Shown in pieces: positions 10,200 through 40,312 of a DNA stretch of 40,312 bases. Under the pieces are notes generated by a model, which was given only the letters and a program-made list of their open reading frames with translations, was not told where the DNA came from and ran no database searches. Position 1 is the first letter of the stretch. Every line of letters starts with the position of its first letter. This DNA is from Jaenimonas drosophilae (lineage: Eukaryota; Euglenozoa; Kinetoplastea; Trypanosomatida; Trypanosomatidae), in contig JASAON010001495.1 in assembly GCA_030849065.1 (NCBI GenBank), positions 1-40,312 on the forward strand. Direction: 5' to 3'. The translations under genes were made by a program, and so were the position numbers.

Positions 10200-10232
<33 letters not shown>

Positions 10233-12091
10233 GCGCACGATCATCGGCACGCTCCAAATCTGATGAAAAGTCGGCGCGGCAACGCGAGAAGGATCGCGAA
10301 AGAGAGGAGAGGCATCGCAAGAAGGAGGAAGAACGCCAACGTCAGCGTGAGAAGGAGCGCGAACGTGAAGAACGTGCAGCACGCAAGAAGAATGAAGCAG
10401 ATCAACGCCAACGTGAGAAGGAGGAGAAGGAACGCAAGAAGGAGGAGGCAGAACGCGAGCGCTCAGCACGAAAGAAGGAGCGCGAGCGCGAAGAACGTGC
10501 AGCTCGCAAAAAGGAAGAAGCAGATCAGCGTCAACGTGAGAAGGATGCGAAGGAGCGGGAACGTTCCGCGCGCAAGAAGGAGCGCGAGAATGAAAAGCAG
10601 CGTCAGCAAGAGAGGCAGCTCGCCAAGGATGCCAAGCAGCGTGAGAAGGAAAAGGAAAAGGAGCGCAAACAACGCGAGAAGGATCGCAAGCGCACTCCAT
10701 CTCCCTCGAGCACCAAACACAGCCCCACAAGAAGCAGAAACAGCAGTAGCAGCAGCAGCAGCGGCGCCTCTGCTCACCGCACACCAACTCCACGCTCTGC
10801 GAAGCCATCCACGCCGCCATCCGCCACACGTGATTCGCAAGGTTATTGGCAGCATGACGACCGTGGCAGTGCGCAGCCACAGGATCCGCGGTACAGCGTT
10901 GATCGTTCCAGCCATCAACCGTTGAGCTGTAGTGAGCGGGCGGAGCTCTCAGACCGAGAGAACAGCCCCGCGCGCCACCAACAGCAGCCCTCGCGCAGCA
11001 GCGCAAGTAGCGCGGCCGGAGATACCCCTGGCTCATCTGATGCGGACAGCTCACACAACAACAGCGGAGGCAGTGCTAGCAAATCCATGGGCCTGAATGA
11101 GGAAACACTGCGTGGAGAGCCCGCCGTATCACCCGAAAAGACGCCAAGAAAGAGCTCGAGCAAATCCTCGCATCAGCCATCGCGCCAACCATCTGGCGCG
11201 CTGCGTAGTGGCGACCACTCAACACCACGCAAGCCATCGCAACAACTCTCGGCACAACCATCCAGTGCGCAGCAACTGCGCAGTGGTGATCGCTCCGCAC
11301 CGCTGCACTCACAACCATCTTCTGGTGTTAAGTCACGCAGTTCTCCGCAACAACAAAAAGATGCTCTTCGTTCGCCAAAACGTACTTCAACGGGTAGCTC
11401 CGACAGCGACCGCCCGTCAAGCGTGCCAACCTCCTCCACCGCCACGACCCTTTCATCGGTTGGCGCACGCCACATGGATCGCCGTGAGCTCCCGCCACTC
11501 CCATCACCCGATCATGTGCAGGTGCTCTCCACGCAACAGCTCTATCCGCCCATCAACTACACCGCAGCGTACGGTATCATGTTTGAGCTCGAGAGCCGCG
11601 TGGATATTATCCTCGAAGAGATCTTCTTTGAGCCGATGGCCTCACGGCCGCGTGGTGCCGCACGTTGGTTCTGGCGTGAAGGTGGGCTGGAGAACATGGA
11701 GATTCATCCAGATGAGTGGTACGAGGTTGGCAAGCAGCCAAAGATTAAGCTCATTGAGGGCAATCTGTACTCCGCCGGGCGTCTCGCGCTGCCCATGAAG
11801 GCTGGTCAGCGCTACTCCATCTACGAGAGCATCAACGACGGTGTAGGGCTGAAGGTGATGAAGAACATCATGGGCCACCTGGGAAAGATTGGGGATTTGT
11901 ACAAGCGAGACCGAAGTCTGGCCATCTTTGTTGGACGATTCAGTGGGCCTCCCGCCCCATTCTGCAATCTGGGGAGTGAAGAGTTTCCGGTGGCCTTTTG
12001 TGGCAGAATCACATATCAGCTCGCAGATGGCGCAAGCCCAAAGAAGAGCAAGTCGGGTGAGGCCAAGAAGGACAAGAAGAAGCGCAAGTAG
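8393..12091 (+). CDS. Coiled-coil / leucine-rich-repeat / charged-repeat protein with C-terminal beta domain
   Basis: 1,232 residues, no named homologue recognised. Residues about 20-290 are a long coiled coil with a recurring motif resembling AHAATVAAKDE (seen near 60-82, 155-165 and 255-272), suggesting internal duplication. Residues 290-400 are Gly/Tyr/Arg/Pro-rich and disordered. Residues about 445-570 carry leucine-rich repeats (LETLTMDL, LRILRLRHC, LEEIQLQQC, VAKLDVKDS). An Asp9 run near 603 precedes a Lys/Arg/Glu-rich segment (620-765) built on repeats such as QREKEREREERAARKK. Residues 770-1030 are Ser/Pro-rich. Residues about 1042-1212 form a compact domain, probably beta-sandwich, with alternating hydrophobic strands (IMFELESRVDIILEEIFFEP, SLAIFVGRF, AFCGRITYQL). 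A basic Lys tail ends the protein. The architecture suits a cytoskeletal or flagellar scaffold, which is inference. Confidence 0.88.
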
Positions 12092-12852: not shown

Positions 12853-13053
12853 ATGGATCAGGATCATTTACATGTCAATGCCACGAGCTACGAAGGTATT
12901 TCATCATCATCATCATTATTATCGCCGCGTGATGATGATGATGATGATGAATCTCTACTTGTTCTTCGTAGATTTAGAGATGTGCCCGTTCCTCCAAACC
13001 AAACATATTTGTTGTGGCTGAGTGGTTTGGGTGGCGCACACAGGTTTTCGTGA
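12853..13053 (+). CDS. Small hypothetical protein, 66 residues
   Basis: I do not recognise it. Evidence that it is real: a good acceptor (pyrimidine tract 12821-12840, TTGTAG with AG at 12842-12843) lies nine bases before the ATG, and the microsatellites inside are read as Ser5 and Asp6, the phases used by the certain genes here, not as Met or Ile runs. The protein has a polar N-terminus, an acidic middle (residues about 28-34) and a C-terminus with mixed hydrophobic character (LLVLRRF, PPNQTYLLWLSGLGG). It may be a small complex subunit. The chance of a spurious ORF of this size is not negligible. Confidence 0.5.
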   Translation: MDQDHLHVNATSYEGISSSSSLLSPRDDDDDDESLLVLRRFRDVPVPPNQTYLLWLSGLGGAHRFS

Positions 13054-13402
13054 TGCTTTACCATATACACTCTCACACACACACACGTACACACACTCTA
13101 GAGCCCATTGTGTTCTATGTTTTTTTTTCGTTCATATAACTACAAGAAGAAGTTGTTTTCATCGATTCTTGTACATCTTCCATCTTCGGTCTCTCATCAG
13201 CACACGTTCGTCGGATGATGGTTGTGTGAATATGCAAGCCTCTCCTCACTCAATTTCGTGGATGATCATCATGATCATCATTATCATGTTCGCGTGTACG
13301 TACGCACCTCTTCGAGTACATGTTTGCAGCCTCATCATAACCTCTCTCATCACCCATCTTTTTTTATTTGTAGTTGTGCGAGGAAGAATCATCATCATCG
13401 TC
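13054..13402 (+). other. Intergenic spacer upstream of UBA2
   Basis: It contains a (CA)n tract at 13072-13096, a T9 run at 13121-13128, ATC repeats and the acceptor at 13356-13373. The UBA2 frame stays open through it back to 13022, but only from a non-ATG codon, and translates to hydrophobic pyrimidine-tract sequence; I treat it as non-coding. Confidence 0.5.
13356..13373 (+). promoter_or_regulatory. Predicted trans-splice acceptor for UBA2
   Basis: ATC-T7-A-TTTG then TAG, with AG at 13372-13373, 29 bases before ATG 13403. It decides the start at 13403 against the longer open frame. Confidence 0.7.
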
Positions 13403-15973
13403 ATGGCCACGCCCATCGTTGGATTTGTGGCCTACAAGCAACACAACGGAGATGAAGTTGATGATGGCATGGTGGATGAGATGAGCTGCTGCGTTGCGTC
13501 TTGGTCTTGTGAGGCGATTCGTGATGGTGTGCGCCATTTCATGCAACACCGAGGCCTCGTACACGCACACATTAACGTAGTGATGGGCCCCGTCTCTGCC
13601 ACACGTGGCATGATGATCTTTATCATCACCGTGGGCAAGGATGATGATGATGATAAGGGAGGTGCAACAACAACGAGGCACTCACTACTACCAGCATACC
13701 TCCACGCAGAAAATGAGAAGCGATGCCTGCCCATCATGTGGCAGAAGAAGCCACCCTCATCCGCATCCATTGCCAAGACATCAGCAACAACATCATCTTC
13801 TTGCGTTGGCCGTCATGTACTCCTCATTGGTGCAGGTGGGATTGGCTGTGAGGTGTTGAAGGTGCTCCTCCTCGATAGCCTTCAACGATGGCGGCGCGGA
13901 GATGCCAAGCATGTTGCACGCAACATCGTCATCGTGGATCTCGACGACATCGATGCCACAAACCTCAATCGCCAATTCCTCTTCACCACCGCAGATATTG
14001 GCAAATCAAAGGCAGAAACAGCACGTACCTCCGTGATGCGTTGGTTTCATGATCGTACATCATCATCATCATCATCACATGACGATGTTTCGCAGTACGT
14101 CCCCAACATTGTGGCCCACCACGGCAACATCAAGGCACCACACTTTGATGAATCCTTCTTTGGCCGTTTTCACATCATCATCAACGCCCTTGACAACGTC
14201 AGCGCGCGCCAACACGTGAATCGCATGTGCTCCGCCGTCTCTGTGCCGCTGGTGGAGAGTGGCACGATGGGCTACAACGGCCAGGTACAACCGATTCTTC
14301 GTGGTGCGTTGGAGTGCTATGATTGCCGGCCAACACCTCCTGACACGCAAACCTACGCGGTATGCACCATTCATGCACGACCAACAACGATGGTACATTG
14401 CGTACACTTTGCCAAGGAGCTCTTCAACGCACTCTTTGCTGGAGGCGATGATGGTGATGATGAGGAGGAGGTTGGGCCATCATCGCCATCCTTGGATGAT
14501 GCGGCAGCAGCCAGCAACAGCAACAACAACACAGAACAAGTGGGAGAGCTCACCTACATGCGTGCACGTCTTCGAGCGTGGCGTGTAGAGCAGAAGCAAC
14601 GTTGCATAAACAACAACGACAACAACAATGATCATGATGAGCTTCGGAACTTGATTCTTTTTGGTGTGGAGGTGTTGCGCCATATTGGCGTGGATAAGAT
14701 CAACGCAATCCTCGCCATGAAGAGTAGCTGGGGTGATGATGGCCCACCGGTGCCTCTCTCTGAGCACGTACTCAGCTCCGTCGCAGCACACATTGAGCAG
14801 CGCTGGATGCGTATGTACGCCAACGGGGAGTTGTGCTTGGATGAGCTGCCCATGGAGGGGCCACCATCTCGAGATGAATCTCTGCACCTCCGTGTGGCTG
14901 TTGCACTCTTCATCTCTGCCATGGCTCGCGCCGTACGTCGCAGCCATCATCATCATCAGCACACCTCCTTCAGCAAGGATGATGATGTGGCGGTGGATCT
15001 CATCGCCGCCACCGCTTCTCTTCGCGCGTGCAATTATCACATTTTTCGTCCACCAACAACTCAAGATGGAGAAGCATTATCATCCTATTCGGTGGAGGAT
15101 CTACGCACTATTGCGGGTGCCATTGTTCCTGCCATCGCCACCACCAACGCCATCATTGCGGCAGCAGCGGTGCAGCAGATGCACCATCTCATGCTACTTG
15201 CGGAGCACAACACACAACAACATTCAGAAAAGAACTGCGATGTTGGCAAGGCACGCATGGTTTATGTACGCCGTCAGCCACTGCAACAACGACGATGGCC
15301 GCCGGTACATAGTTGCTGGCTGCATGGTACATCATCATCATCATCATCATCATGCAGACGTAAACGTGAGCGTGGTGGCAATCATCTCGCACCCATCACG
15401 GATCATTTGATGCTGCACAGTGTGCTGCCTAACCTCCCATCTCCATCCTGCCACGTGTGCCAACGTGTACCACCGCCACACATCACGATTCTTTGCACGA
15501 CAACAACAACAACAACAACAACAACAACACTATCAACGTGGTGTTTGGCAGATTTTGTTCGTGCGTGTCTCGTGGAGGAGCTCGAGATGGAGGCACCGAG
15601 CGTCATGTGCGGAGCTCAACTCATTTATGAAGAGGAAGCCTTTGAAGCGTTGGGCGATGAGCCACTTGCACACTTCATCGCCAATGGTGATGTACTGCAT
15701 CTCTCGGTGGATGCTCTGAATCATGAGGTGGGATGGGTTGTGTCGGTACGCAACGCATCTACAAATGATGATGAAGAACAAAGGTGCTCATCAAGAGCAT
15801 TCAGCATTGTTGGTCTCGAGGAGGCCAAGAAGGCGGAGGCGGCGGCTGTGGCACAACAACAAGCTGCTCCAACCCACGAGAAGGATGGCACAGTTGATGA
15901 TGAAGATGAAGATGCACATGGTGTGGTGGAGATTGATTCCGATGACGATGAGGTGGTGGAGGTTAGCCAATAA
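13403..15973 (+). CDS. UBA2: SUMO-activating enzyme subunit 2 (UBA2-like E1)
   Basis: 856 residues. UBA2 pairs with an AOS1-type partner to adenylate SUMO and carry it as a thioester. Seen: Rossmann ATP-binding motif GAGGIGCE at 143-150, then DLDDIDATNLNRQFLF, NALDNVSARQHVN and the conserved G-T-M-GYNGQVQ stretch. A first zinc CxxC lies at 305/308 (CYDC) and a second at 683/686 (CHVC). The catalytic Cys321 is in YAVCTIHARP, followed by HCVHFAKELFNALF, as in known UBA2 proteins. A C-terminal ubiquitin-fold-like domain spans about 710-775. The acidic tail ends with VVEIDSDDDEVVEV, resembling a SUMO-interacting motif. Unusual: about 140 residues precede the Rossmann motif, where most UBA2 proteins have few. 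Asp/Asn/Ser/Thr low-complexity inserts lie in loops (about 345-385, 640-655, 695-705). No AOS1 gene is in the window. Confidence 0.95.
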   Translation: MATPIVGFVAYKQHNGDEVDDGMVDEMSCCVASWSCEAIRDGVRHFMQHRGLVHAHINVVMGPVSATRGMMIFIITVGKDDDDDKGGATTTRHSLLPAYLHAENEKRCLPIMWQKKPPSSASIAKTSATTSSSCVGRHVLLIGAGGIGCEVLKVLLLDSLQRWRRGDAKHVARNIVIVDLDDIDATNLNRQFLFTTADIGKSKAETARTSVMRWFHDRTSSSSSSHDDVSQYVPNIVAHHGNIKAPHFDESFFGRFHIIINALDNVSARQHVNRMCSAVSVPLVESGTMGYNGQVQPILRGALECYDCRPTPPDTQTYAVCTIHARPTTMVHCVHFAKELFNALFAGGDDGDDEEEVGPSSPSLDDAAAASNSNNNTEQVGELTYMRARLRAWRVEQKQRCINNNDNNNDHDELRNLILFGVEVLRHIGVDKINAILAMKSSWGDDGPPVPLSEHVLSSVAAHIEQRWMRMYANGELCLDELPMEGPPSRDESLHLRVAVALFISAMARAVRRSHHHHQHTSFSKDDDVAVDLIAATASLRACNYHIFRPPTTQDGEALSSYSVEDLRTIAGAIVPAIATTNAIIAAAAVQQMHHLMLLAEHNTQQHSEKNCDVGKARMVYVRRQPLQQRRWPPVHSCWLHGTSSSSSSSCRRKRERGGNHLAPITDHLMLHSVLPNLPSPSCHVCQRVPPPHITILCTTTTTTTTTTTLSTWCLADFVRACLVEELEMEAPSVMCGAQLIYEEEAFEALGDEPLAHFIANGDVLHLSVDALNHEVGWVVSVRNASTNDDEEQRCSSRAFSIVGLEEAKKAEAAAVAQQQAAPTHEKDGTVDDEDEDAHGVVEIDSDDDEVVEVSQ

Positions 15974-18262: not shown

Positions 18263-19060
18263 ATGCGCAAGACGACGTGTTTGTGTGTGGCCCCGTGGGT
18301 GCCACCACCTCGCCACGATATCTTCACGACGGTGCCACCGCCACCCGGCGGCGAAGTTGGTGGCTCCTTCGGGGTTTCAACGGGCTACAGCGATCGTCTT
18401 GCACGTACACCACACTGGAAGCGCATGGCCATGAGCACCTACGCTCTCCGCATGAAGGAAAACACAACCTTTTATCCCATGAGCGTTCATCGCCCCGGTG
18501 ACTACGATGTTCGCTATCTCGCCACACCGTATCCAGATCATTTACGCCACCGGCCCTTGTTGGAGGTGGGCGAGGCGCGCCAGATCCCTGCGATACGCAT
18601 CCCAGTTATTTTTCTCCGCAACGTGTTCGATGATGTGAAACAAGTATGGATTGGCAAGAAGCATGAAACGGTGTACGTGGCACGTTCTTTTGCGCGTGAG
18701 GAGCTCATTCCGCAGCGCATGGCCATCTACGCCACCGAAGAGGCCTACCGTCTTCTGCACCTCCCTGTCGTGCATCACCACATTCATGATGAGATTCCGC
18801 ACAACATGGAGGCCTACCGCAAGTTGATGGAGAAGCAGCACTACGATGAGCAACAGTGGCAGTACACGGTGGAGTATCTCTTCAAGGCCTACGAGGCCGG
18901 GCCACCGGAGCTGCGCGACGTGTCGGAGGAGGAGTGGGATGGGGTGGAGGAGGTTGTTGGCTCCGCCGCGAGCAGCTCAGCGTCGGGAGGTGGCGCTGCA
19001 GGATCATCCCGCAAGGGCCCCATTAAACAGCGCAAGGCACGCAAGATCAAGCTCTTCTAA
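18263..19060 (+). CDS. Conserved-looking hypothetical protein, possible mitoribosomal component
   Basis: 265 residues, no family recognised. Residues 1-30 are basic, Cys- and Pro-rich without acidic residues until Asp19, compatible with a short targeting sequence. The central part (about 55-225) is rich in Tyr, His, Arg and aromatic residues and looks globular and RNA-binding-like. Residues about 229-250 are a Ser/Gly/Ala linker, and the last 15 residues are very basic (GPIKQRKARKIKLF). Composition and size resemble lineage-specific mitochondrial ribosomal proteins of kinetoplastids, but that is only a guess. There is no transmembrane segment. ATG 18263 follows within about 15 bases of an AG (TTCTAG). 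Confidence 0.8.
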   Translation: MRKTTCLCVAPWVPPPRHDIFTTVPPPPGGEVGGSFGVSTGYSDRLARTPHWKRMAMSTYALRMKENTTFYPMSVHRPGDYDVRYLATPYPDHLRHRPLLEVGEARQIPAIRIPVIFLRNVFDDVKQVWIGKKHETVYVARSFAREELIPQRMAIYATEEAYRLLHLPVVHHHIHDEIPHNMEAYRKLMEKQHYDEQQWQYTVEYLFKAYEAGPPELRDVSEEEWDGVEEVVGSAASSSASGGGAAGSSRKGPIKQRKARKIKLF

Positions 19061-26300: not shown

Positions 26301-27491
26301 ATGTTTCGCAGAGTGGCCACCACCGCGGTGGAGGTACATCATGTACATGGTGTGGCATCCACCGCCCTCCTCATCTCTGCCCGTGGCGCAAAGCTGCTGA
26401 ACCCAATTGGCAAACATGGCAGCCAGCACTACGGCCTCGAGCCTAAGCTGGAGGCGGGCAAAGATGTGCAGCTCAAACACACGGAGATGTACGATGGATA
26501 TACCGATGATTTTGGCGTGTACAAGGAAGGACCGCCCGTGGCGCTGCGTTTGGAGTACATCCGCAGCCCCGATCACGGCCATTCGCAACAACTCTTGCAA
26601 AAAGATGTGTGGTCCCCATTTCAGGTTGGTGCCAACATGATGACGTACACGCCCTTCTACTACGACTGGAAGGGCTTCAGCAGCAGAGACTATTGGGGGC
26701 ACCGAAGTGGCACCAACCCGGGCAGCAAGGTATTGATGGGGCATTACAAGCGCGACGAACAGCGTTCGTGGGGCCACCGCATCATGATTAACCACAAACC
26801 ACAAAAACGTGTGCCAAAGTGGCTCGCTTGTGTGGTACATATCCCCCGAAAGCGTTCGTTTCTGGGCTTCTTCTTGTACGCCAACGGTGCCTACGTCGCG
26901 GAGCTCCTCACCTACAAGCAGCTCCCACGCATCATTTACAACAAGCCCTTCCAGGGTTGTTTGCCAACGATTGGGCAGACGGTGGCACTCACGGAGGTGA
27001 GCTACGGCAAGGAGATTCATTCCGTGGAGATGTATCCCGGCCATGGTGGTGTGATGTGCAGGGCAAGTGGCACCGCGGCTGTGGTGTTGCGTGGAAGTGA
27101 GCCCGATTTGGTGCCACTTCTTCTCCCATCCAAGGAAGTACGTCTCTTTGATCGTAGCTGTCATGCCGTCTTTGGACGACGAGCTGGCGTGATGTATAAC
27201 CAACATCGCAATCATGGCAAACGTAACATGGAAGCCAACATGCCACATCGCCCGCGCGTGCACTCCAAAACAAAGCGTGTTTCCAGCCATCCTGCGGGTG
27301 GTGGCAACGGTGGCTCACCAAATTTGTTGGTGCCACTGGATTGGCGCATTCATCCACGAAACTCCGTCAAGTCCAAGTACTGGTTGTCAGGGTACATCCT
27401 CAAGGGTCGTCAGTACACCAAAAACCAAACCGTGGCGGATCTCAAGACCAAGACTTATGGATGGGGGAGCAGAGATCCGGTATACCGATGA
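26301..27491 (+). CDS. Mitochondrial large-subunit ribosomal protein uL2m
   Basis: 396 residues. uL2 binds 23S-type rRNA near the peptidyl transferase centre. Seen: a basic N-terminus (MFRRVATTAVEVHH) suited to mitochondrial import; at about 131-160 the RNA-binding region WGHRSGTNPGSK, KRDEQRSWGHR; at 222-260 the uL2 core LPTIGQTVALTEV, GKEIHSVEMYPGHGG and RASGTAAVVL, matching bacterial IGTxxHNIEMxPGKGGQLxRSAGT; at about 278-343 KEVRLFDRSCHAVFGR, HRPRV and SSHPAGGGNGG, matching the HPHGGGEG loop. Here one of the two His of that loop is Ala. Extra segments (about 35-125 and 340-396) have no counterpart in bacterial uL2, as expected for the protein-rich kinetoplastid mitoribosome. The frame upstream of ATG 26301 begins at TTG and is excluded. 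Confident family call. Confidence 0.9.
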   Translation: MFRRVATTAVEVHHVHGVASTALLISARGAKLLNPIGKHGSQHYGLEPKLEAGKDVQLKHTEMYDGYTDDFGVYKEGPPVALRLEYIRSPDHGHSQQLLQKDVWSPFQVGANMMTYTPFYYDWKGFSSRDYWGHRSGTNPGSKVLMGHYKRDEQRSWGHRIMINHKPQKRVPKWLACVVHIPRKRSFLGFFLYANGAYVAELLTYKQLPRIIYNKPFQGCLPTIGQTVALTEVSYGKEIHSVEMYPGHGGVMCRASGTAAVVLRGSEPDLVPLLLPSKEVRLFDRSCHAVFGRRAGVMYNQHRNHGKRNMEANMPHRPRVHSKTKRVSSHPAGGGNGGSPNLLVPLDWRIHPRNSVKSKYWLSGYILKGRQYTKNQTVADLKTKTYGWGSRDPVYR

Positions 27492-27836: not shown

Positions 27837-28526
27837 ATGTTTCGCCGTGTTTCCGCCGCCTCCCCCATCACCACGGTGATGATCTCTGCGCGACGCAACG
27901 CCTCCATCCTCGCGGAGCTCAAGTACCCCGCCGCCCTCCCACAGCTCCCCTACGCCTACCAAGACGGCATCCCACCCGTGTTCTCACCTCGTCAGCTTGA
28001 GCTGCACTACACCAAACACCACAAGGCCTACGTGGATAAGCTCAACACGCTCGGTGCGGGTTTTGAGGGACAGACGATTGAGGACGTCATCCACGCCGTC
28101 AAGGATGATGGCGCCAAGAAGGTTATGTTCAACCAAGCCGCGCAGCACTTTAACCACACATTTTTTTGGCACTGCCTCACCCCTCAGGGTGCGGCCATCT
28201 CTCCAGCGATGGAGAAGGCCATCGCGGCACAGTTTGGTGATGTGGCGAGCTTCAAGGCTGCCTTTGAGCAATCCGCCATCAATAACTTTGGTTCTGGCTG
28301 GACGTGGTTGTGCGTCAATGCCAAGAAGGAGCTCGTGATCAGCAACACGAGCAACGCACTCTGCCCCATGACAGAAGGTCTGAAGCCCATCCTCACCGTG
28401 GATGTGTGGGAGCATGCCTACTACAAGGATTTTGAGAACCGCCGCCCAGACTATCTCAAGGAGGTCTGGAAGGTTGTAAATTGGCGCTTCGTCGAGGAGA
28501 TGTACCACAAGGCCATCAAGGGATGA
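27837..28526 (+). CDS. Iron superoxide dismutase, mitochondrial
   Basis: 229 residues. It dismutates superoxide to oxygen and hydrogen peroxide. Residues 1-28 (MFRRVSAASPITTVMISARR and onwards) are basic and hydroxylated, a likely mitochondrial presequence. The mature enzyme starts near LKYPAALPQLPYAYQDGIPP. The four metal ligands are visible: His57 in LELHYTKHH, His107 in FNHTFFWH, Asp189 and His193 in DVWEHAYY. Gln103 in NQAAQHFNH lies where Fe-SODs, not Mn-SODs, place the active-site Gln. FGSGWTWL (151-158) and the C-terminal dimer region FENRRPDYL are intact. Length fits mitochondrial Fe-SODs of kinetoplastids, a lineage that relies on Fe-SODs. A (GAT)n run follows in the 3' flank. Confidence 0.97.
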   Translation: MFRRVSAASPITTVMISARRNASILAELKYPAALPQLPYAYQDGIPPVFSPRQLELHYTKHHKAYVDKLNTLGAGFEGQTIEDVIHAVKDDGAKKVMFNQAAQHFNHTFFWHCLTPQGAAISPAMEKAIAAQFGDVASFKAAFEQSAINNFGSGWTWLCVNAKKELVISNTSNALCPMTEGLKPILTVDVWEHAYYKDFENRRPDYLKEVWKVVNWRFVEEMYHKAIKG

Positions 28527-29490: not shown

Positions 29491-29787
29491 ATGGCGGCAA
29501 ACATGGTTGTTGGCCAGGCCTTGTCTCAGTACATCATGATGGACTTCAGCAACGAGATTCTCAGTCAGTGTTGGGATGTCTGCTACGATCGCAATCTCAC
29601 ACGTGCGGAGCTCACGTCGGGGGGTGGGCTGACGGATGCCAAGGAGAGCAAGATGGAGGCGTGTGGCCGAAAGTGTGTTGCGCGCCACTTTGAAGTGATG
29701 AAGTTGATGATGGATACACGCACACTGCGAGAACAGGAGATGATGCAGGGATTGGCGCCCGGCACTCTAACGGGCCAACAGTTGTAG
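29491..29787 (+). CDS. Small Tim chaperone (Tim8/9/10/13 family)
   Basis: 98 residues. Twin CX3C motifs, CWDVC at 27-31 and CGRKC at 58-62, flanked by helices (ALSQYIMMDFSNEILSQ before, VARHFEVMKLMMDTR after), define the intermembrane-space small Tim fold with two disulfides. These proteins escort hydrophobic inner-membrane carriers and are imported by the Mia40/Erv route without a presequence. The loop between the motifs is 26 residues, longer than the usual 11-16 or so, and contains a Gly-rich turn (TSGGGLTD). The start is ATG 29491 after an ACA/CAT-rich leader; the frame opens upstream only through a TTG. I cannot tell which of the small Tims it is. Confidence 0.9.
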   Translation: MAANMVVGQALSQYIMMDFSNEILSQCWDVCYDRNLTRAELTSGGGLTDAKESKMEACGRKCVARHFEVMKLMMDTRTLREQEMMQGLAPGTLTGQQL

Positions 29788-29999: not shown

Positions 30000-30125
30000 A
30001 TGAGGAGGCAAACGCACCTCCATTTACATCAACACGCGGCATTCTTGCGTGGAGTGGCACGACGGTGCTTTTGTTCTTGTGCTGCTCCAACGCGTGTGTT
30101 TTCAGCGAATAAGTACGGAAGATAG
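30000..30125 (+). CDS. 41-codon upstream ORF or short gene; presequence-like peptide
   Basis: The ATG begins at the first base after the predicted acceptor AG. The peptide starts MRRQTHLHLHQHAAFLRGV and continues with Arg, Cys, Ala and Ser, with no acidic residue in 41 codons, then stops at TAG (30123-30125). That is the composition of a mitochondrial targeting sequence without a mature protein. It could be a translated uORF controlling the giant gene, an isolated micro-gene, or an N-terminal piece of a disrupted or cis-spliced gene; its frame differs from the giant ORF and is closed by stops before 30182. Confidence 0.3.
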   Translation: MRRQTHLHLHQHAAFLRGVARRCFCSCAAPTRVFSANKYGR

Positions 30126-30181
30126 ATACATCTTCACTCAATAATATTATAGTTTTTTTTTGTTGTTGTTGTTGGTGCGTG

Positions 30182-33100
30182 ATGTTCGTCACACGCCAAC
30201 TTCGATGTGCGTTGCACGCCTACGTGTTGGCTGCCGTACAACAGGGTGAGTGGAGGGCATGTTTGGCAGCACTGGAGCACATGTCTGTGGCACAACTTGT
30301 GCAGATGCCACTGCCAACGATTCTGCCCTTGTTGGCACACCAACATCATCAGTGGGAGGCCTTGTGTATGATGCACGCATCCTTGGCAACAACAACAACA
30401 ACAACAGCAGCAACATCATCATCCATGTCGGAAGAAGAGATTGTGGCGAAGCTGCCACGTCTTTCTCCTGCCTCCTCGAGCACAAGCACCAATGATGTTC
30501 GTGAAGTTGTTGTTGAAATTCATGATGATGATGGCGTGGATGATGTTGTTGCCACTCAGTGGCTGCGTCATGCTGTCTTGGCTCCTGAAGCCGTTCAGTG
30601 TGGTGGTAGCGCATCCACCATGGTTCTCATCCTCCGCAACATGGCTGCACGCCATCATCATCTTGATGATCATCTTCGCTCAGAGTGTGCGCGTGTGATG
30701 GATGCGTGGCTCGCCGAACCAGGCAAGTACCCACGTTTATTGGCACACACAAGCATGAATGAGCTCCAACAGGCATCACGATGGCTGCGTGGAGAAGAGC
30801 GCACAACACAACACGGCGTACATGCATCATCATCATCATCATCAACATCAACGCAAGAGGCACAAACATCGTCATCACATCATGCGTGTAGCTTTCCACC
30901 TCACATCACCTCCATCTCTGCCGTGGAGATCATCCTTACCAATCTTCTTACCGCAATTGTGTTGGCACCATCTTCATCATCCATCTCAACAACACGTGGG
31001 CATCGTTCATTCATGCCCGCGGCAGATGCCATGGATCAGCTCACTCGATGGTGCAGCTCACAACGAGGCCACGTTGATGATGATGATGTGGCGGCATCTA
31101 TAATCGCCACGGTGCTACGGTGGATGCACAAGGGCACGAATGATGTTGATGGGGTACATCGTTTGGTGGCGGCAGAGTTGTTGCTTCGCGTCTTCGCCAA
31201 AAGCACAACTCCGCCAGCATCATCATCATCATCATCACTTGCATATGCCTGCATCACCGGCCTACACGTGGATGTTTTGCGGAGATGGAAAGTGCATCCA
31301 AAACAACAACAACAACAACATGATGCATCATCCATGCTAATCTATGTGCCATCACTCACATCAACGCGAACTCTGCCAATGGACGACGTACATGCGGAGC
31401 GATTGTGCGCCAAGGCTACAGCGGCGGAGGAGCACAAGGCGTGGAGGAGATGGTGCTCAACGTTGAGGTACATGTGGATGAACGCCAACGTGGATGCAGC
31501 TCTACGTCAAGGTGTGGCACACCAAGACAATCACAATGAGATCCATGATGACGTGCAACATAGGAGTACATCTTCATCTTCATCATCTGTGCTTGCCACG
31601 CTTCTTGCCGATCAGATCCTATCTGCACAACCTGTTGGTGATGCGATGATGATGTTGTCTCGCGCGGCATATGTTGATGGTGCTGTGGTGGCAGCTGCCA
31701 TGGTTGGTGTGGGAAGCACAGCATGGGCATCCATGCATGGTGCATCAACCTCGTCTGCACGTGTTGCCACGGCATCTGTGGATGAGTTGGTGGCAGCATC
31801 CATTGAGTACATCATCACATCGATGCGCTCCGACACAAGAACACACGTGGGTGGCGGTGTACGTATTGATGATGTTGTGGTGATGGATGCGTTGAGCATC
31901 ATGAATTCAGCCACCTTTGCATCCTTGGGCCTCCTTCACAAGAAGAAGAATGATGATGATGATCATGTGTGGAGCTGGGTGAGCTCACTCGATGTACGCA
32001 TGCAACAACGCGTGGTGGCCGTGTCTCGACGACTTGGTGCAGCCACCGCACGGCGATGGATGAGCATCACGCCAACCTTGGATGTTGGTGATGAGAGATG
32101 CCTCGCCTCTGTGTTGATGCTCCTCGTGAAGGAGATGCCAACAACAAACATGAAGATGGCGGATGCACGTCACAACACGTCCATGTTGGTGTCGCGTGAG
32201 CAGAGCAAACACACCGACGCCCTCGAAGATGATCATGCTGATGATGATGGTTTGGATGATCTCCTCAACACCGAGCGTCTTATAGATACCGCGACGGATG
32301 ATGTGCTCGACGTTGAGGTTGATGCAGCAACACCGTGGCTGTGGTTGGTGGCGTGTGGAGATGGTGGCATCAGCAATGTTGTGCGTCTTGGTGATGCACT
32401 CATTCATCGATACATTGAAGAGGTGCAAGACAAGAAGCACACATCATCATCATCATCATGTTTCACGAATACACCGCTTCACGTACTTCGAGCACTCATC
32501 AACGTCATGACCTCCGCCAGCACGCGCACAGAAATTGTGCGTGAGTGGCTCCAACGACATGTCACTCATCAACATCATCACGATAAAGCAACAACAACAA
32601 CAACAGCTTATTCATTGTTGGTGGTGCAGCTGGTGCTCGTGGCATCACTCCAGCATCCCTCCACGATCATCAACATGGAGGAGCAGATGCTCATGCTACA
32701 AGACTGTGTGTCTGGCCATGATGCAGGATCATCCGTGTTGCCATACGAGGATGTACTTCGATGTGTGGTGTTGTTGTTGCGTACTTCCGGTGATTCCGTC
32801 TATCATCAACACGCCTCCACATGTGCGTTGCGAGCAGTCCTGACGACGATGGAGGTCAGCCATGATTCAGCACAACACACAACAACACCAACAACAACAA
32901 CAACATCCATCTTGGAGTTGTTGTCTTGGATGTTGTTGCAACATCGTCACGCGCCACATTGGATGGGTGCGCTTGTGTTGCAGAGTGGTGCCGAAGACGA
33001 AGACGATGGTCTTGTGCGTGTTGCCCATCCGCATCAAGCTGATCATGTTGCTTTTCATCAACGGCATACACGCCGCTCATCCTCATCATCATCATCATCA

Positions 33101-36100
33101 TCATCATTGTGGCGTGCTCATCTGCACGACGAGCTCCACGCCTCCTCCGAGATCAATCTTAGACGTGTACGCCATCTCTTCTACCAACGCCAGCATGAGC
33201 TCACCATGACGGAGCTTGCGTGGTTTGCACAAATGTTGCAACGTGCCCCACTTCATCTCGTAGAGGACGTTGTAGAGTGCGCTCGGCAACGTGCGCATGT
33301 GAGCAACGATGCAACAACGTTAATCTCCATCATTCTCGCGTGTGTTGATGCCGCGGCACACTTTTGTATGAGTGTGGTGGCACATACACACTACATTCCC
33401 ACAACAACAACAACAACAACATCTTCTGATGGCACGTGTAACAACAACAACAAGAAGGTGGCCAAGACACGCAACCAACGTCTGTGGGAGCACACACGTG
33501 CAGTTGCGGTTGTGGTTGGTGCGTTGCGCTTGTGGCCAGCATCATCATCATCATCACGCCATCACCATGATGGTGTGGTTGATGATGACGTTGATGATGA
33601 TGATACTCATCGGCGATTGTTTGCGTCGTTGCGCATCGTTGCCTCCATCAACAGCGGAGATGACGCCAACATCATCCACGAAAAGATGTACGCCATGCTC
33701 ATGCAAACAAACCTCTACTCCTCCATGCACCAACATGTACGTGCGCGTGAGGATGTGTGTGCTGCGATTGAGATGGCTGCCAACGTTGGCGATGTGTTTG
33801 CGTTGATGGCGTACGCCGCACATCGGCAAAAATGGGCTCGGCCGCCCCTTCCGAGTGCAGCAATGTTGGCATTGATGCTCTCTGCACATCAGCACGGGCA
33901 CGTGAGTGGCCACGCACCAACAACACACAACACATCATCATCATCATCATCACCAACAACAACCACATTGACGCAGTTGATGGTTGATGGCGTTGAATCC
34001 ACGGCGGAGGTACTCGCGTGGAAACATGCGCAAAGCGTTGAAGAGATCGTCTTGTCATGCGGGCGTGGGCCACACGCAAACCATGATGCTGATGCTGATG
34101 TACGTGATGATGATGATGATGTAGAGGCAGTGTTGTTGTTGGAGTTGCGTCGAGTGGCAGCGCAACAACGGTGGCATCGCACGCATCGGCCCACGTCACA
34201 GTATGAGCAACGCGGTGCGATGCGCATCATGGACCTACTTGCCAACATCATGCGCTCACTCTACGGCCTACACATTGCCACACCAACAACAACAACAACA
34301 ACAACTGCACGCGTGACGGATGTGTGTTGGTGGTTGGAGGTGCCACGCATAGACGTCATGCATGAGTTGGTGGAGGTATCATCCTTGTGCGCATTGCAGC
34401 ATCGTGTGTTGATGATGATGAAACGTGTTCCGCTCGACGGCACGACGTGTGTTGCGCTGACACGTGTGTTGGTGGAGATGGTGGAGTTGGTGATGATGTA
34501 CGTACGCCAACACCATTGTGAAGAGGAGCGTGTGTGTGCGAAGAAGATGTGGGGTGAGATGCAGCAATGGATTGCACAACAATGCAAGAAAACCAACAAT
34601 CATGATGAAGATGATGTTGGTGGTGTTGGAGTTGGCATCATCTACGAGCATCTTCATCAGCGACTGATGGTGATGGAGGAGGTCGGACTGCACAAGAGAG
34701 CTCAACGTGGCAATGACTCACGTAGCATGGAGGAGCAACTTATTCTCCAGACAGATGCTACTGCCATGGATGTACGAGCACGCAACATGATGTTGCACGT
34801 ACACACACATGCATCACCAACATTGTGTTTGGCATCTCGACTGTGCCTCCTCGCGCATCGTTTGCGTCTGCGCGATGATTCGTGCGATGTTGTCAGCCAC
34901 GTTGTTGCGGCAGAGTACGTCACACGTTGGTGGAGTGAAGCGGAGCAATGTACGTCATCAACAACGTGTGCCGATGATGATGATGATGATGTGTGGTTGG
35001 CCTACGCATTGCGACGTACATCGGAGATCATTGAAGCGTCTCAGCTCATGACGTCGATGCACCAACTACGACTTGAAGTGCTTCCATCATCATCATCATC
35101 ATCATCATCACCAACGTGTGCCGCTTCAGCAGATTTGTTGGTGGCGTGCAGAGGTGCTCTCACGCAGTTGCGTTTTCGTCTTCACGCCGCTGTGTTGTGT
35201 CGCTTGCCGACGTACGTTGAAGGATGTATCTCAAAAAAGAACATGATGAAGGATGATCATCATGATGTTGATGGTGTACGAGATGCGGTGCTCATGTTGG
35301 CATGTGTGTTGGCGAGGCAGGCCATGGCGTTGTCAGCAACATCACCAACGGGCAAACACGCACGATGTTTGGCTGCACGTCTCGCGGAGATGGCATCAGC
35401 AACATCATGTACAACACACATCAACCAAGAAGAGATGCAGCGACGTTGGGTCCTTCACGTGCTGCGCGATGTGCTGGAGCCACACACATCCCCACGACGC
35501 ACCACATGCAATCACAGCCATCATCCATCAACATCATCTGTCATGATGTACGGCGATGTGTTTTGGCGATCCATGGCGATGATGATGGAGATGCCGCTTG
35601 AGCAGCAACTCGCCAAACATGCTGAGGTCTTTCATCTTCTTGGCAGTGCCATCACCACGCAGATGGAGCTCAACAACAGCAACAACAACAACAGCATTCA
35701 TGATGATGATGGTGGTGATGAAGCAGCAACAACAACAGAGTTGTGTTATGATCATGTTGCGGAGCTTCTTCTTTTTGTGGTGCTGAGTTCCTCCGTCATC
35801 CTCCACGGCGATGTTGTGTGTCGTGGCGGTGCCAATCGAAGAAACGTTCGGCGTGTGTGCTCCATCATTTCTGAGCACACACGATTCGCACTAATACATC
35901 AACAACAACAAGACGATGATGAAGATGATGATGTGTTGCATCCGTTGCTCGTGGCGGCGTTGTTTCGTGTAGCACATCGTGGTGCATCACGCACAAGCCC
36001 GTTGAATGCGTTGCTCATGACGTCTGGCATGTATCAGAACACGAACGTTGATGATGATGATGACGTACATGCGCACATACTTGGTGTTGTGGTGCAGGTG

Positions 36101-39100
36101 TGTCTTGCCTTCACGAACCGTGCAGGTGAGGTATCCATCTCTTCCGCAGAGGTGTTGTTGCAACAGCTTGGCCGTGTTGCTCCTCATCGTGTTGGTGTTG
36201 CCATGACGTTGATGCAACAACTCACGCCACGTGTGGGTGCCAACGTGTTCGCGTGTTGGCGCTGGAGATGTGTTGTTGCAGCCGTGGCGATGCAGTCGTG
36301 TGGGCCGTGGCAAATGACGGCCCTCGCCACACATGTGCTTCCCGCACTCATTCACAACAACAACAATGATGTTGTTGGTGGTGAGTTTTCGGAGCTCCTT
36401 CTTCCATCGCCAACACACACGTCAGTGTGGGAAACATCGGCGCAGCGATGGAAGCAACTTGATGAGCTCATGCACTCATCATCATCATCATCATCTCCTC
36501 TCGTGGAGTTGTTTCTTCGCGCACGTCGATGTGAGAATATCACAGCACAACACATTTATTGTGAATCGATGCGCGACGCAACAACAACAGCGGGATTGAT
36601 CCGCGCGAGCTCCGCCGGCGTGCGCGAAGTTTGGGCAAGCAGATGCACCAACTCATCAGCTTCATCATGTATTGATGATGATGTTGCTCAACGCATCTTC
36701 ATCACCACACAACTTGCCACAAACACATCAACATCGCTGACGTGTGAGTTGCACCAACAGCACACGTGGTGGTTGGAGTCTTCTGTGTTGTTTGCCGCAC
36801 AGAGCTCTCGTCGGCACACTGCATCAATGAGCTTGCCAACGGTAGATGAAGAACAGCAACAACAACAACAACATCGTGAAGAAGATGTGCGTCAGCAGGA
36901 CACAACAACATCATGGATGAAGAAGCGCTACGCCTATCCTGCATCCATGTGCCTCATCGCACCCATGGAGGAGATGATTAGCAACAACAACAGCAAGAAC
37001 AACACGAACGCAGCAGAAACATGTGCTTCATCATCATCAACACAGACGTGTTGGAATGTTGTTGGCACTTGTGCGTGGGTGCGTCTCGTGGATGAGCTCA
37101 GGTGTGCCGCGGATGATGCGGCGGTGTTGCGATGGATCAACGCACGTGTGTTGGCGGAGGATCTTCGCAGTACTGAGTTGTCAGTGGCTGCGTGGAAGAT
37201 GCTTCACCAACACAACATCATGGCATCTCCAACAACAACAACAACAACAACATCATCAACAACACAACTTCATTGTGCATTCATGTGTGCGTTGGTTCGT
37301 GTTGGTGATGTTTGTGATACGGTTGGCCGACAACTTCGTCTGGAGGTGTTGAGTTGGATGATTGCGAACGTCGTGGAAGCATCCGCAGCACAACAACACA
37401 AGAATTGTTGTGCAAATGATGATGATGATGATGATGTGGTGAGTGTTGTGGCGGCAGCATGTACGTTGGTGACGTCGTGGCTTCAGACCTCCTCCTCCTC
37501 CTCCGCGGCTGTGTTGGAGCAAGTCAAGGAAGATGTTGCGAACATCGCCACGTGCGTGGAGCTACTCCTTCGCTGTATACGTGGGGATGCTGCAGCTCGC
37601 ACAGAAATGATGAAGATGATTATGCATCCACGTGATGATGCTCATGTGTGTTGGCAAATGTCCTTGTGGCCGCCAGCGTTGTGGGAGCTGGCCTTGGCTT
37701 CAGCAATGCAGCCCACGACGGAGATGTGCCACGACGGTGCGTTGATGGAGTTGAGGCATCCACGTGTTGTGTGCAACCTGATGAAGCAGATGTTGGAGAG
37801 TGAGCTGCATCCATCTTCATCTCAGCACCGACTTGTGTTGCACCATCACCAACAACGTGTTGATGTTGCCGTTGCTGGGTTGAGCTCCTTGCGACCAACA
37901 ACACCGCCACATCGGCCACTTCTTCAGTTGGTGCATGTTGCACATGAATATCTTCATCATGGCAGATGTACGTGGACGCGCCCACACAAGGAAGAAGATG
38001 CAACACTCGCCGACAACAACAACAACAACAACAACATGGTTGTTTCATGGATCAAGCAAAAGAAGACGGAACCACTGGCGTCACGTCGTCGTGGTGTTGA
38101 TGTGGTCATGGCGATGATGATTGGCGCACTCAACACGTTTCATCAACGTTGCGGCGATGCGCACAACTTCGCCGTGTTTGCGGCCGCCGCACGTGACGCC
38201 TCTGCGATGCTCATTGAACCGTGGCAACATCAACCAACATCATCATCATCATCATGTGTGTTGTGTGTTGTGCCAACAGATTGGGAAGCGTTCCTCCGCT
38301 TTGTTGTGGCACGAATCTCACTTGCCCGCCGTCATGATAATGTTGATGTACGCACAACATCTGCGGTGATGAATATGATTCATCATGCTGCAGCATCCAA
38401 CCATGTTGATGCGAGGTTGGATGATGTATACGTACTTCAGCAACTTCTTCTTTTTGTGTTGCGAAGCCACATGGCGGCGATGTCGTTGGTGAGCCCCAAC
38501 GGTTTTCACGCGGAACGGCAGGCAGCCATCAACACAACATGGTCGGCGTGGATTCATGTGTTGCGTATGTGCCACAACATCAACGTACCAACAACTCCGA
38601 AGACGAAGAAGAGGAGCATCATCATCACCAACGCGAGCCTCATTGTGGAGCTGAAGGAGTGGGTTGGCCCTGTGGCAGTGAAGCTGATGCGTCGCTTATC
38701 ATGCACCACGACGCAACAACAACAACAACGTGTACCGCTCACGTTGGATGGTGTGTTTCACTTTTTTTGTGGAACATGGCGTTCGTGGACGCGACGACGA
38801 CGTTGGTGGCGTAACGCGCCGACCATCGTGGCAACACTGCGTCATGACGTTGATCAGCTGGAGCACAACTTGGGTGAGCTCCTTCAGCACAACAACAACA
38901 ACAACAACATGTTGGATCGTGGAGAGCTACTGAAGCGTATTCATCGTCGTTATTCATCTTTTGTGAAGCAAGCGCAGAAGTGCGCCCATCAGCACGGCAT
39001 CGTGCCTCCTCACGATATAATTCTGCGTAGCTTCTCTGTTGCTGTGGCCATCACGATGGTCGTGGAGAGGGATGGTGATGTTGTTGTTGTTGTTGGTGCC

Positions 39101-40312
39101 GATGTTGCAGCTGTTGCACTTCGGCTGTTCCTCGTGCTCCACCGCCTCATGATCATCACGCCAGTTGTGCTCGAGCACATTCTTGTGTTGGCGTGGATGG
39201 CGATGAAGTTGGATTCATCATCACCAACAACAACAACAACAACAACACGTTCAACATCATCTTCACCATCGTCACCAACCACGTTGGCCTTGCGTGCATT
39301 GATGCAGGTGTTGCAGCAGCACCAATCCGTACATCTCACCTCCACGAGTCTTGTGGCATTGATGGAGATGCGTGCGTACATCAACATTCACAAGATGAAG
39401 ATGAATAAGAACAACAACAACAACAGCGTCATTGATGTTGTTACGCTGCATCAATGGGCACTGTGGCGTGTAGTGTTGGAGCTGCAACATAAATCGTGCA
39501 TGGATCAAGTGGAGGTGATGCAGATATTGCGTTCATCCACCACCACCACCAACAACAACAACGTGGATGTGCAGATGAGCTCTACACTTCTTCATGATCT
39601 TCGCGACGGCTGCATCAACTTCCTTCTGACGCATCAGCATCATCAACGTGGCTACGACGCACCCTTCATCCACGCTGGTGAGATGGCGGTACACGCACTC
39701 GGAACTCATTCATCCTTTGTGTTGCAAGTCCTGGATGCAGCACACATACGCAGCACCTCACCGGTACAACGTATGTCTTCTGGCCGATCACGTCACCTTC
39801 TGCAGCTCCTCATGCTGGAAGAGGAAGAGAAGTTGTGCGTTTCTCTGCCAACATCATCATCATCAACATCCTTTGATGTGTTGTGGTTGTTTGCTGCTCC
39901 ACGTGCCGTGGATGGTGCGTGTCCGACAACGATGAAACAACTTCTGCATCGGCTGGCCTTTGCCACACATGCGCTCTCGTTGCGCGATGATGTACGTGGC
40001 CATGATCATCACCCGTGGAAGTACTTCATCTCCATGTTGATGCCATTGTTGTTGTTGGATCATCATCACGATGGTTTTCACGTGGATGCAACAACAACAA
40101 CAACAACAACAACGTGCGAAGAGTTGCAAAGTGTGGTACACGCACATCTACTTGAATGCCATCAACATCAAGATGATTCTCTCAGCATCATGTATGTGTG
40201 CTGCCAACGTACGTTGCGCGCCTTGTGCTCATCAACGTCTTCTTCCGTTTGGCCACTTGTGTGGGCACTTGCCATGGCAATGAAAGAGATGCAGCACATC
40301 AACACGAGTAGC
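30182..40312 (+). CDS. Giant ORF, at least 3,377 codons, unknown alpha-helical protein; 3' end outside window
   Basis: From ATG 30182 I read every codon to 40312 and met no stop; frame checks at 31139, 33359, 36599, 38759 and 40019 agree, and the window ends on a codon boundary. The other five frames hold only short ORFs. The protein begins MFVTRQLRCALHAYVLAAV, which could be an import signal. It continues as amphipathic helices rich in Leu, Val, Ala, His and Trp, suggesting an alpha-solenoid. Dozens of short Ser, Thr, Asp, His, Asn and Gln runs, encoded by TCA, ACA, GAT, CAT, AAC and CAA repeats, probably mark surface loops. I found no P-loop, kinase, protease, zinc-finger or clear transmembrane motif. 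A second start, in-frame ATG 30281, is possible if the AG at 30243-30244 behind the T9-(TTG)n tract is used. The family is unrecognised: large HEAT-like scaffold, PPR-like factor or flagellar protein are all open. Confidence 0.9.
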   Translation, partial: MFVTRQLRCALHAYVLAAVQQGEWRACLAALEHMSVAQLVQMPLPTILPLLAHQHHQWEALCMMHASLATTTTTTAATSSSMSEEEIVAKLPRLSPASSSTSTNDVREVVVEIHDDDGVDDVVATQWLRHAVLAPEAVQCGGSASTMVLILRNMAARHHHLDDHLRSECARVMDAWLAEPGKYPRLLAHTSMNELQQASRWLRGEERTTQHGVHASSSSSSTSTQEAQTSSSHHACSFPPHITSISAVEIILTNLLTAIVLAPSSSSISTTRGHRSFMPAADAMDQLTRWCSSQRGHVDDDDVAASIIATVLRWMHKGTNDVDGVHRLVAAELLLRVFAKSTTPPASSSSSSLAYACITGLHVDVLRRWKVHPKQQQQQHDASSMLIYVPSLTSTRTLPMDDVHAERLCAKATAAEEHKAWRRWCSTLRYMWMNANVDAALRQGVAHQDNHNEIHDDVQHRSTSSSSSSVLATLLADQILSAQPVGDAMMMLSRAAYVDGAVVAAAMVGVGSTAWASMHGASTSSARVATASVDELVAASIEYIITSMRSDTRTHVGGGVRIDDVVVMDALSIMNSATFASLGLLHKKKNDDDDHVWSWVSSLDVRMQQRVVAVSRRLGAATARRWMSITPTLDVGDERCLASVLMLLVKEMPTTNMKMADARHNTSMLVSREQSKHTDALEDDHADDDGLDDLLNTERLIDTATDDVLDVEVDAATPWLWLVACGDGGISNVVRLGDALIHRYIEEVQDKKHTSSSSSCFTNTPLHVLRALINVMTSASTRTEIVREWLQRHVTHQHHHDKATTTTTAYSLLVVQLVLVASLQHPSTIINMEEQMLMLQDCVSGHDAGSSVLPYEDVLRCVVLLLRTSGDSVYHQHASTCALRAVLTTMEVSHDSAQHTTTPTTTTTSILELLSWMLLQHRHAPHWMGALVLQSGAEDEDDGLVRVAHPHQADHVAFHQRHTRRSSSSSSSSSSLWRAHLHDELHASSEINLRRVRHLFYQRQHELTMTELAWFAQMLQRAPLHLVEDVVECARQRAHVSNDATTLISIILACVDAAAHFCMSVVAHTHYIPTTTTTTTSSDGTCNNNNKKVAKTRNQRLWEHTRAVAVVVGALRLWPASSSSSRHHHDGVVDDDVDDDDTHRRLFASLRIVASINSGDDANIIHEKMYAMLMQTNLYSSMHQHVRAREDVCAAIEMAANVGDVFALMAYAAHRQKWARPPLPSAAMLALMLSAHQHGHVSGHAPTTHNTSSSSSSPTTTTLTQLMVDGVESTAEVLAWKHAQSVEEIVLSCGRGPHANHDADADVRDDDDDVEAVLLLELRRVAAQQRWHRTHRPTSQYEQRGAMRIMDLLANIMRSLYGLHIATPTTTTTTTARVTDVCWWLEVPRIDVMHELVEVSSLCALQHRVLMMMKRVPLDGTTCVALTRVLVEMVELVMMYVRQHHCEEERVCAKKMWGEMQQWIAQQCKKTNNHDEDDVGGVGVGIIYEHLHQRLMVMEEVGLHKRAQRGNDSRSMEEQLILQTDATAMDVRARNMMLHVHTHASPTLCLASRLCLLAHRLRLRDDSCDVVSHVVAAEYVTRWWSEAEQCTSSTTCADDDDDDVWLAYALRRTSEIIEASQLMTSMHQLRLEVLPSSSSSSSSPTCAASADLLVACRGALTQLRFRLHAAVLCRLPTYVEGCISKKNMMKDDHHDVDGVRDAVLMLACVLARQAMALSATSPTGKHARCLAARLAEMASATSCTTHINQEEMQRRWVLHVLRDVLEPHTSPRRTTCNHSHHPSTSSVMMYGDVFWRSMAMMMEMPLEQQLAKHAEVFHLLGSAITTQMELNNSNNNNSIHDDDGGDEAATTTELCYDHVAELLLFVVLSSSVILHGDVVCRGGANRRNVRRVCSIISEHTRFALIHQQQQDDDEDDDVLHPLLVAALFRVAHRGASRTSPLNALLMTSGMYQNTNVDDDDDVHAHILGVVVQVCLAFTNRAGEVSISSAEVLLQQLGRVAPHRVGVAMTLMQQLTPRVGANVFACWRWRCVVAAVAMQSCGPWQMTALATHVLPALIHNNNNDVVGGEFSELLLPSPTHTSVWETSAQRWKQLDELMHSSSSSSSPLVELFLRARRCENITAQHIYCESMRDATTTAGLIRASSAGVREVWASRCTNSSASSCIDDDVAQRIFITTQLATNTSTSLTCELHQQHTWWLESSVLFAAQSSRRHTASMSLPTVDEEQQQQQQHREEDVRQQDTTTSWMKKRYAYPASMCLIAPMEEMISNNNSKNNTNAAETCASSSSTQTCWNVVGTCAWVRLVDELRCAADDAAVLRWINARVLAEDLRSTELSVAAWKMLHQHNIMASPTTTTTTTSSTTQLHCAFMCALVRVGDVCDTVGRQLRLEVLSWMIANVVEASAAQQHKNCCANDDDDDDVVSVVAAACTLVTSWLQTSSSSSAAVLEQVKEDVANIATCVELLLRCIRGDAAARTEMMKMIMHPRDDAHVCWQMSLWPPALWELALASAMQPTTEMCHDGALMELRHPRVVCNLMKQMLESELHPSSSQHRLVLHHHQQRVDVAVAGLSSLRPTTPPHRPLLQLVHVAHEYLHHGRCTWTRPHKEEDATLADNNNNNNNMVVSWIKQKKTEPLASRRRGVDVVMAMMIGALNTFHQRCGDAHNFAVFAAAARDASAMLIEPWQHQPTSSSSSCVLCVVPTDWEAFLRFVVARISLARRHDNVDVRTTSAVMNMIHHAAASNHVDARLDDVYVLQQLLLFVLRSHMAAMSLVSPNGFHAERQAAINTTWSAWIHVLRMCHNINVPTTPKTKKRSIIITNASLIVELKEWVGPVAVKLMRRLSCTTTQQQQQRVPLTLDGVFHFFCGTWRSWTRRRRWWRNAPTIVATLRHDVDQLEHNLGELLQHNNNNNNMLDRGELLKRIHRRYSSFVKQAQKCAHQHGIVPPHDIILRSFSVAVAITMVVERDGDVVVVVGADVAAVALRLFLVLHRLMIITPVVLEHILVLAWMAMKLDSSSPTTTTTTTRSTSSSPSSPTTLALRALMQVLQQHQSVHLTSTSLVALMEMRAYINIHKMKMNKNNNNNSVIDVVTLHQWALWRVVLELQHKSCMDQVEVMQILRSSTTTTNNNNVDVQMSSTLLHDLRDGCINFLLTHQHHQRGYDAPFIHAGEMAVHALGTHSSFVLQVLDAAHIRSTSPVQRMSSGRSRHLLQLLMLEEEEKLCVSLPTSSSSTSFDVLWLFAAPRAVDGACPTTMKQLLHRLAFATHALSLRDDVRGHDHHPWKYFISMLMPLLLLDHHHDGFHVDATTTTTTTTCEELQSVVHAHLLECHQHQDDSLSIMYVCCQRTLRALCSSTSSSVWPLVWALAMAMKEMQHINTSS

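Follow-up and report, generated by a model that had tools for sequence, protein, structure and literature searches.

The window analysed here, a stretch of 40,312 nucleotides from the trypanosomatid Jaenimonas drosophilae, is the whole of contig C204 (G000:C204:1-40312; 40,312 bases) in an assembly of 18.79 Mb and 370 contigs. A giant open reading frame (ORF) on the plus strand begins at the ATG at 30182 and is still open at the contig end (40312), its translation running for 3,377 residues without a stop. The data presented below indicate that this giant ORF is a conserved trypanosomatid gene, coding for an uncharacterised giant of a known sort and newly placed by gene order.

Starting with the GTG at 30179, the ORF frame comprises 3,378 codons and no stop; that GTG stems only from the bacterial start rule of the gene-listing tool, and the size of the ORF is therefore given as at least 3,377 codons. 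The five other frames of the same DNA contain 102, 176, 154, 115 and 97 stops, with longest open stretches of 125–175 codons. At their pooled stop rate (about 3.8%, 644 of 16,886), a stop-free run of this length would have a probability of about 1e-57 by our own arithmetic. Eight upstream ORFs served to train a codon-usage score, which reaches 0.25–0.35 bits per codon in the ORF frame, against a maximum of 0.213 in the remaining frames; the ORF frame is ahead in 9/9 windows that together span the entire giant ORF. Because the frame is open beyond chance and carries a codon-usage signal, the giant ORF is a real protein-coding gene; the original prediction, which described a stop-free frame running off the window that could not be due to chance, was right on both points. 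The DNA is rich in simple repeats (30 trinucleotide arrays of at least five units within 10.1 kb), as would be expected of a stop-poor repeat tract without any gene, but every other frame is closed by 97–176 stops and the coding signal is present in all windows; a chance opening or a repeat artefact is therefore rejected, its probability being negligible.

The features of the window, followed by those of the contig C235 that bear on the gene order, are:

13022..15973, plus strand: homologue of the SUMO-activating enzyme UBA2 (family profiles ThiF and UBA_E1_SCCH; UAE_UbL below cut-off)
18263..19060, plus strand: ribosomal L9-type protein, probably bL9m (Ribosomal_L9_N, E 5.4e-8)
26301..27491, plus strand: mitochondrial ribosomal protein uL2m (PDB sequence match and family profile)
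27837..28526, plus strand: iron superoxide dismutase with a presequence-like start, MFRR (sequence and family profile)
29491..29787, plus strand: small Tim gene (zf-Tim10_DDP, E 4e-6)
30000..30125, plus strand: upstream ORF of 41 codons in another frame, with an Arg-rich start (sequence)
30099..30105, plus strand: acceptor-like TTTTCAG after a pyrimidine-rich stretch, a candidate trans-splice acceptor
30182..40312, plus strand: giant ORF, 3' end open
30182..30247, plus strand: residues 1–22 of the giant protein, without Asp or Glu and with Arg at 5 and 8, possibly a weak presequence
33122..33379, plus strand: residues 981–1066, the only stretch modelled with confidence, predicted as helical hairpins in two models
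L012:4465-8928, minus strand: protein kinase of C235 (Pkinase, E 1.5e-15, profile positions 71–257) whose catalytic loop reads HGD and which lacks DFG
C235: signal peptidase (Peptidase_S24, E 4.4e-5; Peptidase_S26, E 7.9e-4, below cut-off)

The slot of the giant ORF was identified from its neighbours on two contigs. A search for SUMO, which sits downstream in Trypanosoma brucei, found PF11976 at six places in the genome, namely three ubiquitin-L40 fusions, two matches below cut-off and one SUMO-like match at the start of C235 (47,332 bases), on the minus strand. Read along that strand, C235 carries first the DFG-less kinase and, near its other end, the signal peptidase and SUMO; its opening 1,072 bases contain stops in all three frames and no frame of at least 220 codons. 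In published reports, TbUba2 is Tb927.5.3430 (PMC4426598), TbTim11 is Tb927.5.3340 (PMC5584982), the type I signal peptidase is Tb927.5.3220 (PMC4376731) and SUMO is Tb927.5.3210 (PMC3796365), while Tb927.5.3320 is labelled 'Pseudokinase, putative' (PMC7952579) or 'protein kinase' (PMC2771046). The kinase of C235, which lacks DFG and matches Pkinase only from position 71, is in keeping with the pseudokinase label. C204 followed by C235 thus reproduces the order of the T. brucei numbering (Tb927.5.3430,.3340, [slot],.3320,.3220,.3210), neighbours being matched by family rather than by alignment and the T. brucei order being taken from locus numbers.

Since conserved neighbours flank it in the same order on both sides, the giant ORF is taken, by position only, as orthologous to the gene slot that lies between Tb927.5.3320 and Tb927.5.3340 on chromosome 5. 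The C204 small Tim gene is likewise assigned to the TbTim11/Tb927.5.3340 slot by gene order only, and the UBA2 homologue to the Tb927.5.3430 slot. The two contigs do not overlap over 15–60 bases and are joined by gene order only; the likeness to T. brucei, the same kinds of neighbours in the same order across two contigs, is therefore positional and made at family level, and the entry Tb927.5.3330 itself is presumed from the numbering. A single library search for that number returned no paper text bearing it. The adjoining small Tim gene and the kinetoplastid character of the gene had both been proposed in the original prediction, together with a comparison of gene order beside small Tim, and these proposals agree with the order found here. 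That a real gene occupies this conserved slot is held with far greater confidence than what is proposed below for its product. The gene had also been put forward as an undescribed component: no description of the giant protein was found among the papers listed in the literature searches, but the gene as such has probably already been catalogued in trypanosomatids, since gene order places it in the Tb927.5.3320/.3340 slot.

The genes upstream of the giant ORF are annotated on the same strand, and those for uL2m, iron superoxide dismutase and small Tim are each a single unbroken frame closing with an ordinary stop. The best solved chain for uL2m is 7aih_BL (793 bits over 376 of 380 chain residues; next chain, 63.5 bits), from a Leishmania mitoribosome. 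For the UBA2 homologue, the listed GTG probably lies upstream of the true start. Of the Leishmania identifiers tried, only LinJ.08.0300 (FeSODA) turned up in the accessible literature text. Further upstream, positions 8393–12091 encode a protein of 1,232 residues that matches LRR profiles weakly, below cut-off, and contains a long charged stretch rich in Arg, Lys and Glu. Elsewhere in the genome, the three ubiquitin-L40 fusion genes (L007, L008 and L009, on C89, C121 and C323) encode near-identical proteins; on C121 and C323 they are followed by a similar but diverged gene, as judged by eye, and a segment may have been duplicated.

At its 5' end, the giant ORF has its nearest upstream in-frame stop at 30110, and the ATG at 30182 is the first downstream of the acceptor-like TTTTCAG (30099–30105). 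The upstream ORF of 41 codons begins directly after a TAG that is itself preceded by a pyrimidine-rich tract, and it resembles an Arg-rich presequence; it is either a leader ORF or a hint of a different true N-terminus. Many mitochondrial presequences contain Arg and lack acidic residues, as do the first 22 residues of the giant protein.

The open 3' end reflects the limit of the assembly, as the window is the whole of C204. Neither the C-terminus nor the stop was found in the assembly: the final 300 bases of the window match only themselves in the genome, and no continuation was seen in C1–C20 (20 of the 370 contigs, first 10,000 bases of each, judged by eye without a similarity test), 12 of which carry an ORF of at least 300 codons open at an end of the 10,000-base stretch. 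The smallest contig has 10,105 bases, provided that contig numbers follow length, as is true for those seen. The assembly thus seems to begin at contigs of 10.1 kb, so that a short contig bearing the C-terminus would be left out. Assembly gaps also strip other gene ends, C235 cutting SUMO at its start.

No relative of the giant protein was found in the material searched. Three pieces covering all 3,377 residues matched only the giant gene itself in the genome (E <= 0.001 for one piece, E <= 10 for the others), apart from a single match regarded as noise (31% over about 82 residues, E 0.044). In a large protein collection, no relative was found at E <= 10 for the whole length (2,658 candidates scored), for residues 975–1075 (14 candidates) or for residues 2285–2385 (323 candidates). 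As this search requires identical five-residue words and the trypanosomatid content of the collection is uncertain, it is weak evidence of absence. No Pfam or NCBIfam family exceeds the cut-off in the giant protein, nor does any Pfam family in any one of its nine pieces; weak Pfam matches other than HEAT_ULK4 (E 0.024 to 4.8, all below cut-off) were taken as noise. A sequence search of the PDB with the whole sequenced protein gave no match at E <= 10, while residues 970–1074 gave nine, all to antibody light chains or scFv with E >= 0.28, that is, noise. At sequence level, the sequenced part of the protein therefore shows no recognisable domain, as had been stated. Homology to a dynein chain, which would have ended the novelty of the gene, was not found: the giant protein is alike in size class to dynein heavy chains but contains no dynein Pfam domain in its 3,377 residues.

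The giant protein shows an amphipathic helix signal in its helical periodicity. Two predicted models covering 646 of the 3,377 residues are all-helical and of low confidence, except at residues ~980–1060 (about 80 residues), where ten-residue block means are 76–92 in the first model (residues 981–1066) and 72–90 in the second (residues 978–1057). In this stretch helix starts are spaced by 34–36 residues. The models consist of short helices that are set apart and do not form a single long coiled coil, and their VIA structural rows lie at background Z; among these rows are chains of organellar ribosomes, mitoribosomes included, and parts of Tel1/ATM, STAG1, the TSC complex and USP9X. No internal repeat lag between 20 and 129 was conspicuous by eye (without a shuffle control). 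Helical repeats are partly supported by the models: an all-helical tendency agrees with the proposed alpha-solenoid, whereas a regular solenoid throughout the chain and the building of a large complex are putative.

The giant protein contains 47 runs of at least four equal residues, 34 of which use a single codon. AAC/GTT and ATC/GAT classes account for most trinucleotide arrays of at least five units in the ORF (28/30), in the rest of the window (43/49) and in C235 (64/71). As these classes dominate in all three, most homopolymer runs resemble expanded microsatellites that the protein has tolerated. Residues of such runs lie outside helices in 12/25 and 20/28 cases in the two models, against 26% and 28% of all residues, an enrichment but not an exclusive location, obtained from low-confidence models in which partly the same run is counted twice. 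The runs, read as homopolymeric loops in the original prediction, are mainly a property of the genome region. Arrays number 30 per 10 kb in the ORF and about 15–16 per 10 kb both in C235 and in the remainder of C204; the twenty small contigs C1–C20 contain 2.9 on average in their first 10 kb, 10 of the 20 having none. A mixture of two genomes as the source of this uneven density is not supported, as uL2m and small Tim match the genome once each, without a second copy.

Taken as a whole, the following model can be proposed. The single-copy gene would encode a giant protein, mainly alpha-helical, in which degenerate helical hairpins, each about 35 residues long, follow one another; between many of these hairpins lie short stretches that AAC and ATC microsatellites have enlarged. 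The protein would most likely be a passive scaffold whose helical surface holds protein or RNA partners, no active site being seen in its sequenced part. Its likeliest location would be the mitochondrion, where it might take part in RNA processing or mitoribosome assembly, by analogy with the PPR and HPR/OPR proteins of other mitochondria. The only hints of this location are the first 22 residues, acidic-free and Arg-containing, and the structural rows. The chain of inference as a whole is tentative, somewhat short of probable.

Resemblance to organellar PPR, HPR and OPR proteins lies in the hairpin period of 34–36 residues in the confident stretch, in the weak mitoribosome structural rows and in the weakly presequence-like N-terminus. 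The giant protein would be very large beside such proteins and differs from them in its PPR profile result and in the lack of a RAP domain in its sequenced part (the RAP family PF08373 has no match anywhere in the genome at E <= 1). Four PPR loci of the same genome supplied eleven repeats, which were combined with one consensus repeat into a PPR profile. The best score of this profile in the giant ORF is 2.9, which is attained by 55 of 500 shuffles, and the reversed sequence reaches 2.2. True repeats, when left out, score from -6.7 to 41.5 (consensus 51.8), and since some score so low, degenerate PPRs would escape this test. Residues 8–42 resemble a PPR helix pair by eye, yet score only -4.9, and no PPR family of Pfam or NCBIfam matches the giant protein. 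By its sequence, it thus does not appear to belong to the PPR family in the strict sense. Three reports bear on the related families: HPR and OPR logos have no strict consensus (PMC12691811), HPR-like domains are reported in more than 70 Plasmodium proteins through structure comparison (PMC11079077), and passages on the OPR consensus give no full motif usable as a test (PMC8635915). A degenerate PPR, HPR or OPR member binding RNA through its repeats would account for the helix spacing, the PPR-like look of residues 8–42 and the organellar ribosome chains among the rows, and the lack of a strict HPR/OPR consensus leaves room for it; with a PPR profile at shuffle level, it is nevertheless improbable.

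The sequenced part could instead belong to a giant HEAT/ARM protein of a known kind, such as a PIKK kinase, a HECT ligase or a GCN1- or UTP20-like protein; it would then represent the N-terminal solenoid, the diagnostic C-terminus lying outside the assembly. HEAT/ARM giants typically have thousands of mainly helical residues ahead of any recognisable domain, a feature shared by the giant protein, and HEAT_ULK4 is the best HEAT match (residues 404–803 piece, E 0.027, below cut-off). The VIA rows from Tel1/ATM, STAG1, the TSC complex and USP9X would point the same way. They are however at background Z, no Pfam family exceeds the cut-off in the nine pieces, the PDB gives no sequence match to the whole sequenced protein at E <= 10, and the T. 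brucei PIKK loci are not known to lie in the Tb927.5.3320/.3340 slot. This origin is thus rather unlikely, though the best placed of the alternatives. A trypanosomatid-specific giant scaffold of the cytosol, nucleus or cytoskeleton (for example in flagellar attachment or at the nuclear periphery), without any tie to RNA or mitochondria, is a little less likely still. It agrees with a sequence that holds no proof of a mitochondrial site, and it fits less well with the acidic-free residues 1–22 and with the separate short helices of the models, as many cytoskeletal giants are long coiled coils. In its most specific form, the mitochondrial scaffold proposed above would be a trypanosomatid-specific single-chain platform of more than 3,377 residues, devoted to kinetoplast RNA processing or mitoribosome assembly and replacing the many PPR/HPR proteins used elsewhere; this form is doubtful.

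Gene order converts an isolated giant ORF into a gene that can be tested in model parasites, on T. brucei chromosome 5 in the interval that the pseudokinase and small Tim delimit. The stretches enlarged by microsatellites may be part of the reason that sequence searches miss such a gene. If the protein is a disguised HEAT giant, an unannotated gene slot is still named; a mitochondrial protein of this kind would rank as a very large component of the kinetoplast gene-expression machinery.
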